From a bacterium (GTDB lineage Bacteria; Cyanobacteriota; Vampirovibrionia; Gastranaerophilales; Gastranaerophilaceae): DNA of 44,460 nt. Position 1 is the stretch's first letter; each line of letters begins with the position of its first letter. Under the pieces are notes generated by a model. That model did no database searches and was not told where the DNA came from. It worked only from the letters and a program-made list of their open reading frames with translations. Position numbers and translations under genes: made by a program. Shown one piece after another: positions 15,311 through 25,001 of the stretch. The DNA is taken from NCBI GenBank assembly GCA_017403285.1, contig JAFQOI010000036.1, forward strand, positions 1-44,460, given 5' to 3'.

Positions 15311-15868
15311 ATGATATCAGTAAATGATTTAAAAACAGGTTTAACACTTGAAATAGACGGCGGTCTTTGGAATGTTGTAGAATTTATGCACGTAAAACCA
15401 GGAAAAGGCGCTGCTTTTGTAAGAACAAAATTAAAAAATGCTGAAACTGGAAACGTTATTGAAAAAACATTCAGAGCAGGCGAAAAAGTTGCGAAGGCAA
15501 CTCTTGATAAACGTGATATGCAATACCTTTACAAAGAAGGTAATGACTTTGTAATGATGGATTTAGAAAGTTATGAACAACTTGGTGTTTCTGCTGATAA
15601 AATTGGAGATGGCGTGAAATACCTTAAAGAAAATATGAATGTAGCTATCTTATTCCATGGTACAAATATTATCGGTATTGATATTCCAAACTTTGTAGAA
15701 CTTGAAGTAGTTGATACACCTCCTGCGGAAAAGGGAAATACTGCACAAGGTGGTACAAAACCAGCAACTCTTGAAACTGGTGCAGTTGTTAACGTTCCAT
15801 TCTTTGTTACAAATGGAACAATTATTAGAGTTGATACTAGAACAAATGAGTATTTAGACAGGGTCTAG
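15311..15868 (+). CDS. efp: Translation elongation factor P
   Basis: The 185-residue protein is full-length EF-P, which enters the ribosomal E site and rescues stalling at proline runs. It begins MISVNDLKTGLTLEIDG, has the domain I loop with K32 at the tip (KPGKGAAFVR) and ends in the OB-fold signature GTIIRVDTRTNEYLDRV. K32 is the residue modified by lysylation, rhamnosylation (Arg) or other means in various bacteria; no modification gene lies nearby. AGGAAG lies 5 nt before the ATG. accB follows after 9 nt, the same efp-accB order seen in cyanobacteria, which supports the proposed lineage. Confidence 0.97.
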   Translation: MISVNDLKTGLTLEIDGGLWNVVEFMHVKPGKGAAFVRTKLKNAETGNVIEKTFRAGEKVAKATLDKRDMQYLYKEGNDFVMMDLESYEQLGVSADKIGDGVKYLKENMNVAILFHGTNIIGIDIPNFVELEVVDTPPAEKGNTAQGGTKPATLETGAVVNVPFFVTNGTIIRVDTRTNEYLDRV

Positions 15869-15877
15869 GAAAAATCA

Positions 15878-16333
15878 ATGAAATTTAACTTGGAATATTT
15901 AGAAAAACTTGCAAACATTGTATATGATAATGATTTATCAGAAATAACATTAGAAGATGACGAGCAAGCAATTTCAATAAAAAGGGAAAAACCTCAACAA
16001 GCATCAGTGGCACCAGTAGTTATGCCTGCAACTGTTACTTCGCATGTTGTAGCACCTCAGCCAAAATCTGCCGAACAAGAAAAAGCAGAAGTTCATAAAG
16101 GTAAACCTATAACAGCGCCTATGGTTGGTACTTTTTATGCTGCACCATCTCCTGATGATGCTCCGTTTGTAAAAGTTGGTGATAATATTGCAATCGGTCA
16201 GGTTGTTTGTATTATTGAAGCAATGAAACTCATGAATGAGATAGAAGCCGAAGCATCTGGACAAATTACTGAAATTTGCGTTAAAAATGGCGAAAGCGTG
16301 GAATTCGGTCAGGTCCTTATGTATGTTGAATAA
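15878..16333 (+). CDS. accB: Biotin carboxyl carrier protein of acetyl-CoA carboxylase (copy 1)
   Basis: The 151-residue protein carries the biotin prosthetic group of acetyl-CoA carboxylase, the first step of fatty-acid synthesis. An N-terminal helical segment (1-36) is followed by a proline/alanine-rich linker (37-75) and the lipoyl/biotinyl domain (76-151). The canonical EAMKLM motif places biotin on K117. AGGAAA precedes the ATG and the gene sits 9 nt after efp. A second carrier gene is found beside accC at 23187; the two have the same length and align without gaps around the biotin site. A bidirectional terminator follows. Confidence 0.95.
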
Positions 16334-23186: not shown

Positions 23187-23645
23187 ATGAAAGAAGTATC
23201 AACGGATTACATTGAAAAAGTAATCAATATAATGAGAGATAATGAACTTACAGAAGTTGCTATTGAAGATGGCGAAAGAGCACTTGTTATAAAAAGTAGT
23301 GACTTTAAACCAGTTGTTACAAAAAAAGAAGAGGAAATATTAGACGAAGCTGAAGTACAAGTTGAAGAACTTGTTGAAGAAGAAATTCCTCAAGAAGAAA
23401 AAAAGGAACTAGTTCCAATCGTTTCTAATATGATTGGTATGTATTATTCAAAACCATCACCAGACGAAGAACCTTTTGTTCAAGTTGGTGATATTGTTGA
23501 AGAAGGACAAGTTGTTTGTATTATTGAAACAATAAAACTTGTTAATAAAATAACATCTGATGTAACAGGTAAAATTGTTGAAATTTGTATTGAAAATGGG
23601 AAACCTGTTGAATATGGTCAGATTATTATGTATGTAGAAAAATAG
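23187..23645 (+). CDS. accB: Divergent biotin carboxyl carrier protein (copy 2)
   Basis: The ATG at 23187 follows AAGGGAT; an earlier ATG (22935) would run antisense through atpD and is rejected. The 152-residue protein has the same layout as copy 1: helical N-terminus (1-37), an acidic linker very rich in Glu (45-74) and a biotinyl domain (75-152). The biotin motif reads ETIKLVN, with the lysine (K117) kept but the usual Ala-Met before it replaced by Thr-Ile. SPDEEPFVQVGD and GQVVCIIE align directly with copy 1. Because it lies 9 nt before accC, it is probably a carrier for that carboxylase; whether it is efficiently biotinylated is open. Confidence 0.88.
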   Translation: MKEVSTDYIEKVINIMRDNELTEVAIEDGERALVIKSSDFKPVVTKKEEEILDEAEVQVEELVEEEIPQEEKKELVPIVSNMIGMYYSKPSPDEEPFVQVGDIVEEGQVVCIIETIKLVNKITSDVTGKIVEICIENGKPVEYGQIIMYVEK

Positions 23646-23654
23646 AGTAAGGTT

Positions 23655-25001
23655 ATGTTTAAAAAAGTTTTAATAGCCAATAGAGGTGAAGTTGCAGTTA
23701 GAATAATAAGAGCTTGTAGAGAAATGGCAATTCCAACAGTTGCAGTATACTCTAAAGCAGATGAAGATTCTTTACATGTAAGTTTAGCAACAGAAGCATA
23801 TTGTATTGGGCCTAATGAAAGTTCAGGGAGTTATTTGAATATTCCTGCCATTATTTCGGCAGCAATTGTTTCAGGAGCAGATGCAATTCATCCTGGATAT
23901 GGGTTTATGTCTGAAAGAGCGGACTTTGCAGAAATATGCGCTGAACACAATATTAAATTTATTGGTCCATCACCAGAGTCTATGCAGTTAATGGGAGATA
24001 AGGCGACTGCAAGAAAGACAATGGCTGCAAATGGTGTTCCTATTACTCCAGGAACAGGCATTATTAAAGATATTGAAGAAGCAAAATTGGCCGCTAATAA
24101 ATTTGGTTATCCTGTTATTGTTAAAGCAACAGCAGGTGGTGGCGGTAAAGGTATGAGAGTTGCGAATAATGATGCTGAACTTGAACAAAATATAGTTCTT
24201 TGTCGTCAAGAAGCAGAAAAATTTTTTGGTAATCCTGATGTTTATATTGAAAAATTCCTTGTTAATCCAAGACATATTGAAGTTCAAATTATTGCCGATA
24301 AATTCGGGAATGTTATTCACTTGGGTGAAAGAGATTGTTCTATACAAAGACGTCATCAAAAATTAGTTGAAGAAGCACCATCTCCTGCTGTTTCAAATGA
24401 AATTAGAAGAAAACTTGGTGAAGCGGCAGTAAAAGCAGCAAAAGCAGCAAATTATGAGGGTGTTGGAACAATTGAATTTTTACTTGATAAAGATAAAAAT
24501 TTCTATTTTATGGAAATGAATACTCGTCTTCAAGTAGAGCATGGCATAACAGAAATGATTTCAAATATAGATATTGTTAGAGAACAAATAAATATTGCTG
24601 CTGGTAATCCTTTATCTGTTAAACAAGAAGATATTAAACTTTATGGACATGCTATTGAATGTCGTATAAATGCAGAAGATCCAGATAGAAATTTCTTACC
24701 TGCACCAGGAGAAATAAGTGGGTATATAACACCTGGGGGTTTTGGAGTGAGAGTTGATTCTCATGTTTATTCTGGCTATAAAATTCCGCCATATTATGAT
24801 TCTTTGATAAGTAAAGTAATGTGCTGGGCTCCAACCAGAGAAGAAGCAAGAAGAAGAATGTATCGTGCTTTAAAAGAGTATGTTATAACAGGCGTAAAAA
24901 CAACGCTTCCTTTCTATCAAGAACTCATTGAAGACCCTGTGTTTATTAGTGGAGAATTTGATACAGGATTTATGAATACATACAAGCAAAATAAGGATTA
25001 A
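23655..25001 (+). CDS. accC: Biotin carboxylase subunit of acetyl-CoA carboxylase
   Basis: The 448-residue ATP-grasp enzyme carboxylates biotin on the AccB carrier using ATP and bicarbonate. Visible elements are FKKVLIANRGEVAVRIIRA at the start, HPGYGFMSERADFA, the glycine-rich lid KATAGGGGKGMR, HLGERDCSIQRRHQK and the catalytic EMNTRLQVEH. Length matches the family. It lies 9 nt after accB2 and shares its promoter. Its stop codon and that of the convergent GNAT-like gene share the palindrome TTAA (24998-25001), leaving no room for a terminator between them. Confidence 0.98.
   Translation: MFKKVLIANRGEVAVRIIRACREMAIPTVAVYSKADEDSLHVSLATEAYCIGPNESSGSYLNIPAIISAAIVSGADAIHPGYGFMSERADFAEICAEHNIKFIGPSPESMQLMGDKATARKTMAANGVPITPGTGIIKDIEEAKLAANKFGYPVIVKATAGGGGKGMRVANNDAELEQNIVLCRQEAEKFFGNPDVYIEKFLVNPRHIEVQIIADKFGNVIHLGERDCSIQRRHQKLVEEAPSPAVSNEIRRKLGEAAVKAAKAANYEGVGTIEFLLDKDKNFYFMEMNTRLQVEHGITEMISNIDIVREQINIAAGNPLSVKQEDIKLYGHAIECRINAEDPDRNFLPAPGEISGYITPGGFGVRVDSHVYSGYKIPPYYDSLISKVMCWAPTREEARRRMYRALKEYVITGVKTTLPFYQELIEDPVFISGEFDTGFMNTYKQNKD

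Follow-up and report, generated by a model that had tools for sequence, protein, structure and literature searches.

A genus-wide AccB paralogue with an altered biotinylation motif, encoded beside accC in Candidatus Gastranaerophilales

The closest described system is AccB, the biotin carboxyl carrier protein (BCCP) of acetyl-CoA carboxylase (ACC), represented by profile TIGR00531 and by E. coli BCCP (4hr7, 1bdo). An organism usually has one biotin protein ligase (BPL) for its carriers, according to an excerpt of PMC3199775. Plants encode, in addition to BCCP, the BADC proteins. As described in portions of PMC11926652, BADC are non-biotinylated relatives of BCCP that are without AMKL and help biotin carboxylase (BC) and BCCP to assemble; in other studies they are inhibitory. 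Carriers with unusual target sites are also on record. Passages of PMC3048393 give ALKV as the target site of the Aquifex carrier and state that the lysine of the Sulfolobus AMKS site is not biotinylated by E. coli BirA; a variant motif can therefore matter. Cyanobacterial ACC is controlled by PII binding to its carrier, which makes a carrier paralogue a plausible place for control, judging from an excerpt of PMC5080355.

The locus described here lies in a window of 44,460 nucleotides, the whole stretch of DNA analysed, which forms contig C24 of an assembly of 2.23 Mb and 162 contigs. A sequence-only reading of the window had reported two carriers of almost the same length, and both are present on the forward strand. 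The first, accB1 (15878-16333, 151 aa), is a canonical AccB with the motif EAMKLMNE. It stands beside a gene at 15311-15868 on the same strand that we take, with that reading, to be efp; this ancestral upstream neighbour is kept beside accB in the compared loci. The second, accB2 (23187-23645, 152 aa plus stop), carries ETIKLVNK and is followed after nine bases by accC (23655-25001). Motifs and neighbours are thus as first described, EAMKLM beside efp and ETIKLV beside accC. The ATG at 23187 is the supported start of accB2 because M1 is common to all 35 copy-2 rows; a longer, TTG-started version of the reading frame runs into atpD.

AccB1 and AccB2 are 42% identical, and by Pfam both are clear biotinyl-domain proteins, AccB2 scoring 65.5 bits against PF00364 (cut-off 22.1). 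Against TIGR00531, the curated AccB equivalog (cut-off 115.2), AccB1 scores above the cut-off with 150.8 bits and AccB2 below it with 105.9. AccB2 is therefore named a divergent AccB paralogue and not a canonical equivalent. The neighbouring AccC reaches 725.4 bits against TIGR00514 (cut-off 626.5), and no other biotin carboxylase gene was found in the genome.

AccB2 resembles E. coli BCCP in length and in the order of its parts. The N-terminal region (residues 6-37; 23202-23297) aligns to 4hr7_B from query residue 8 and is predicted to form a helix (6-18) and a hairpin (strands 23-28 and 31-36); AccC would presumably be bound here. An acidic linker follows (residues 38-75; 23298-23411), and then a biotinyl domain (residues 76-151; 23412-23639; PF00364) whose thumb, aligned at SKPSPDEEPF, is retained in a 57-row alignment. 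The altered motif comprises codons E114-T115-I116-K117 (23526-23537), with K117 as the expected biotinyl-lysine. A model built from the 57-row alignment has a mean pLDDT of 79.1, with blocks averaging 92-97 from residue 81 onward and disorder in the linker (pLDDT below 50 in residues 40-71); an earlier model from 24 close rows had reached 55.3. The top solved match to the model is E. coli BCCP 4hr7_G (Z 16.9, with 77 residues superposed at 0.6 A), and 1bdo (E. coli BCCP) and 9a87 (Arabidopsis BCCP1) are also close. The alignments behind the models held planctomycete and canonical AccB rows, with rows partly like E. coli in neither, and so the model is not evidence of the fold independent of homology. 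Biotinyl domains rank first among the structures and lipoyl domains next; both share the fold. Lipoyl domains generally have no thumb, and Asp or Val precedes their lysine; the thumb is a bar to lipoylation. AccB2 differs from them in keeping the thumb and in having Ile before the lysine.

The linker sets the two copies apart across the genus. Its mean D+E fraction is 0.27 in copy 2, against 0.08 in copy 1 and 0.09 in other genera of the family, and its mean P+A fraction is 0.08, against 0.22 and 0.42. The replacement of a Pro/Ala linker by an acidic one, first remarked in the window, therefore holds genus-wide. The N-terminal region has diverged in both copies, whose identity to the family averages 0.45 and 0.43 (0.66 between genera of the family), and the biotinyl domain has diverged mainly in copy 2 (0.57, against 0.71 for copy 1 and 0.78 between genera). 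Such a pattern would fit two carriers adapted to share AccC.

The motif is uniform on both sides of the comparison. ETIK is found in 35/35 copy-2 rows read, from 35 of the 36 genomes with the copy; the copy of the remaining genome (G006) entered through a named locus (L230), probably the contig in question, and also has ETIK. EAMK is found in 36/36 copy-1 rows, from 36 of the 40 genomes with a match (G006, G012, G021 and G038 left out), in 66/66 AccB rows from other genera, which come from a subset of the order- and phylum-sample genomes, and in nine distant loci, altogether 111 of 111 other AccB rows. Of the 168 matching reading frames in the comparison set, 31 were set aside because they repeated one gene, belonged to the OadA-like protein or came from untabulated loci. 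AccB2 keeps the E and K of E-A-M-K and replaces the A and M in every row. The sequence-only reading had named beforehand a finding that would tell against it, namely that ETIK is common among ordinary AccB proteins of the lineage; with ETIK in 0/66 other-genus rows and 0/36 copy-1 rows, it is ruled out as a trait of ordinary AccB. The exchange of Met for Ile on which that reading dwelt is real, but it is not the sole change. AccB2 is marked by A115T, M116I, P81N, T85L/M/I, E121K and E123T. Position 81 is N in 31/35 copy-2 rows and Pro in all 66 other-genus and all 36 copy-1 rows; position 85 is L, M or I in 35/35 and Thr in 62/66 and 36/36; position 121 is K in 34/35 and Glu in 66/66 and 36/36. 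Copy 2 also has I83 in 34/35 rows, T123 in 32/35 and K139 in 33/35. Changes in both residues before the lysine together with a change of charge just after it occur in none of the other 111 rows.

The altered motif is under purifying selection. Codons for T115 vary across copy 2 among all four of Thr (ACT, ACA, ACC, ACG) and those for I116 among all three of Ile (ATT, ATA, ATC) while the amino acids are fixed, which shows selection on the motif. In 12/12 close pairs dN/dS of AccB2 is 0.037-0.141. For AccC it is 0.007-0.037 (10 close pairs) and for AccB1 0.019-0.138 in 9/11 pairs, the other two giving 0.55 with almost no synonymous change. An artefact, a frameshift or a pseudogene as the origin of accB2 is ruled out by its presence in 36/41 genomes, by dN/dS and by the varying synonymous codons. 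AccB2 also keeps all nine columns that are invariant over the 57 rows (L21, G84, P92, C111, E114, K117, N120, G128 and E142), an alignment that includes 17 copy-2 rows and reaches planctomycetes. E114 and E142 align with E119 and E147 of E. coli BCCP, which we take to be sites where lysine blocks BirA recognition; the substitutions E119K and E147K are reportedly the work of Chapman-Smith and others in 1999. As K117, E114 and E142 are invariant in the 57 rows, the sequence leans against a loss of biotinylation.

AccB2 marks one genus of Candidatus Gastranaerophilales. Copy 2 was found in 36 of the 41 genomes of the genus, in 36/36 immediately upstream of accC and in the same orientation (G026 is counted through locus L217, a contig of equal length on which the AccC start is visible). 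Copy 1 was found in 40/41, with a partial match in G038; the search of the 41 genomes gave no copy-1 match in G036. The five genomes without copy 2 (G002, G008, G022, G031, G037) are also without a full-length accC, having none (G002, G008, G037) or fragments (G022, G031). In G008, which is rated 98% complete, accB1 and the PF01039 carboxyltransferase genes were found and neither accC nor accB2 was; an assembly gap or a loss may account for this absence. As a landmark for accB2 in such genomes atpD was set aside. Among the 22 genus loci covered, each of 3-12 kb, it occurs besides the window only in L212, and it is therefore uninformative on the absence in G008.

The order sample of 155 genomes has one AccB match in 146, two in seven and none in two. 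Six of the seven belong to this genus, and the seventh, G169, to a different genus of the family. In the phylum sample of 292 genomes, 12 are without a match, and two AccB matches occur in the same seven only, among the matches listed. An AccB2 profile run over this sample scores the six AccB2 genes at 244-262 bits and others at no more than 165.6 among the matches listed. A separate pattern scan of named public records lists at least 31 loci, 22 with ETIK and nine distant ones, mostly from planctomycetes, with EAMK; that collection may contain further ETIK sites. Record titles of the ETIK loci indicate gut and rumen samples; 21 are titled 'Candidatus Gastranaerophilales', and one is 'Bacterium isolate RGIG4430' (roe deer omasum).

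Sister genera point to the ancestral arrangement. All nine intact sister-genus clusters read (L179, L186-L191, L197, L198) are efp-accB-accC with a single AccB. In this genus efp-accB1 is separate from accB2-accC, the two being about 7 kb apart in the window and in G018. One further genus of the family shows other layouts: G174 (L177) has efp-accB-accC with an accB-accC gap of about 1.2 kb and no second AccB, and G147 (L178, L199) has accC on a separate contig, with no AccB beside accC and no second AccB. In a tree of 104 of 137 rows (genus rows thinned; 148 columns, and weak at that length), each copy forms one clade (copy 1 100/98, copy 2 100/100), on stems of 0.35 for copy 1 and 1.85 for copy 2. 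Joining the two copies by constraint costs 0.31 log units (p-AU 0.495), so a common origin by duplication at the base of the genus would be allowed, not proved. In G169 a separate event has parted efp-accB from accB-accC (L160:2426-3432, L161:3001-4819), and two AccB are present; unlike the pair described here, both copies keep EAMK. Since this split arose independently with EAMK in both copies, the split is rejected as what drove the motif change; loss of the position next to efp is not enough to alter the motif.

A single AccC match was found in each of 38 of the 41 genus genomes and none in three, and a second AccC was not found in the 41 at the thresholds used. The order sample includes seven genomes of the genus; six have two PF01039 matches and the other has a single joined match, like most other genera, and no additional PF01039 carboxyltransferase was found in these seven. 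PF03099 ligases number two in 34/41 genomes and one in 7/41. In the source genome (G000) the two are BirA (250 aa; TIGR00121, above the cut-off) and an LplA-type protein, and a second BirA-type ligase was not found at the thresholds used. PF00364 has three matches in G000: AccB1, AccB2 and an OadA/PycB-like protein, which falls below the OadA and PycB cut-offs, adjoins BirA and an OadB, and has its own carrier domain with EAMK. This BirA need not be specialised, since AccB1 and the OadA-like protein, both with EAMK, must be modified by it too. GcvH is above its cut-off in 35/41 genus genomes, G000 included. With one AccC, one AccA/AccD set and an OadA/PycB-like protein that has its own carrier domain, AccB1 and AccB2 most likely both serve the same AccC in one acetyl-CoA carboxylase. 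The sequence-only reading had asked which copy serves AccC. The divergent copy does stand beside the sole accC found, and most likely both copies serve it. The specialised partner suggested in that reading gains support, as the paralogue occurs through the genus and goes with the one accC found; AccB2 is probably a specialised partner subunit.

Our preferred explanation, which we put slightly above even, is that AccB2 is a still biotinylated second carrier dedicated to AccC in a mixed complex. The ancestral efp-accB-accC cluster would have come apart with a doubling of accB, probably before the members of this one genus diverged. AccB2 would be made just ahead of AccC from the same operon, bind AccC through its N-terminal domain and, together with AccB1, form a mixed AccC-AccB1-AccB2 complex that supplies the single AccA/AccD carboxyltransferase. 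K117 would still be biotinylated by the one BirA. The changed face at the lysine (P81N, T85L, A115T, M116I, E121K, E123T) and the acidic linker may alter docking, with the putative result that AccB1 and AccB2 divide the labour and are not interchangeable. A biotinylated, AccC-bound carrier is favoured because the lysine and the presumed recognition residues are untouched and the rest of the face changed and then froze. The 36/36 adjacency to accC, the retained thumb, predicted biotinyl fold and K117, and the low dN/dS argue in the same direction. Counting against it are the score below the equivalog cut-off and a motif change unseen in the other 111 rows; the long AccB2 stem could also be compatible with a lost carrier role. 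Compared with E. coli-type AccB, AccB2 is alike in the N-terminal region, linker, thumbed biotinyl domain, lysine, nine invariant columns and adjacent partner gene. It is unlike in having ETIK for EAMK, N81 for P, K121 for E and an acidic linker, in being a second copy alongside a canonical one, and in its TIGR00531 score. The Aquifex and Sulfolobus carriers likewise depart from AMKM, ALKV being also without Met before the lysine; no second copy is given for them in the passages of PMC3048393 cited above, and ETIK differs in altering both residues before the lysine.

The main rival is serious, if rather unlikely. It holds that AccB2 is a bacterial counterpart of plant BADC, hardly or not biotinylated, which replaces some AccB1 on AccC as an assembly 'glue' or a brake. 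Like BADC as characterised in the portions of PMC11926652 cited, AccB2 is a BCCP paralogue beside a normal BCCP and one BC, with an altered motif. The genus has one AccC and one AccA/AccD set, the motif is conserved in its altered state, the AccB2 stem is long and AccB2 is encoded together with AccC, all of which suit this reading. Against it, K117 and the two glutamates are invariant where drift would be expected in a pure scaffold; BADC are non-biotinylated and without AMKL, whereas AccB2 has TIK for AMK and keeps the lysine. AccB2 is also 42% identical to AccB1, against 25-30% between BADC and BCCP in the same source, and a bacterial origin would be independent.

It is improbable that AccB2 is an ordinary redundant carrier, relaxed since duplication and swappable with AccB1. 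All nine invariant columns are kept, and G169, split with EAMK in both copies, indicates that a split needs no new function; several near-fixed changes in one domain at dN/dS of 0.037-0.141 are unlike relaxed drift. Less probable again is that AccB2 serves a different carboxyltransferase or decarboxylase instead of AccA/AccD. The changed face round its lysine would suit another enzyme, but no extra PF01039 carboxyltransferase is present in the seven genus genomes (the search covered that family, HMGL-type enzymes without a biotin domain lying outside it), and the OadA/PycB-like protein brings a biotin domain of its own. The least probable reading, a cofactor switch in which the LplA-type ligase attaches lipoyl or octanoyl to AccB2, draws on the presence of that ligase in G000, on ETIK, which we take to resemble the ETDK and ESVK sites of lipoyl domains and GcvH, and on the finding of no lipoyl E2 domain with PF00364 in G000 (three matches: AccB1, AccB2 and the OadA-like protein), and it is opposed by GcvH as an available target in G000 and most of the genus, by the kept thumb and by Ile, not Asp, before the lysine.

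Returning to the second carrier, its interest lies in where the change falls. Few positions in biotin enzymes are as uniform as those flanking the biotinyl-lysine, as the 111/111 EAMK count illustrates, and AccB2 has its own motif, uniform in every copy read, in one genus of uncultured gut bacteria. Because this motif changed and then stayed constant across 35 genomes, alongside a canonical copy, a single AccC and a single BirA, AccB2 is a natural experiment on the role of Ala and Met in BirA recognition, AccC docking or AccA/AccD docking. The literature matches listed, which cover few subscription journals, include no report of such an AccB pair in this group and none of a bacterial BADC-like protein. 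Should AccB2 turn out to be regulatory, bacteria would have a parallel to plant BADC at the step where fatty acid synthesis begins. Tentatively, the ACC of these bacteria may have two unlike carriers, of which AccB2, unmodified, slowly modified or otherwise modified, assembles or throttles AccC; this would be an independent BADC-like invention, fixed in one gut genus.

Two minor observations concern the partner genes. The AccC comparison covers 34 genomes of the genus and 25 others, namely those with a start that fits the search pattern. Of 14 diagnostic columns, five (residues 54, 254, 265, 392 and 421, numbered as in the window AccC) have one fixed residue in 34/34 genus AccC and a different one in 25/25 other AccC, and these five columns may be tied to the two-carrier arrangement. 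In the pairs G017/G011, G001/G010 and G010/G014, synonymous divergence is 0.01-0.02 for accB1, 0.34-0.41 for accC and 0.19-0.44 for accB2; a recent exchange of the efp-accB1 region is possible in these pairs.
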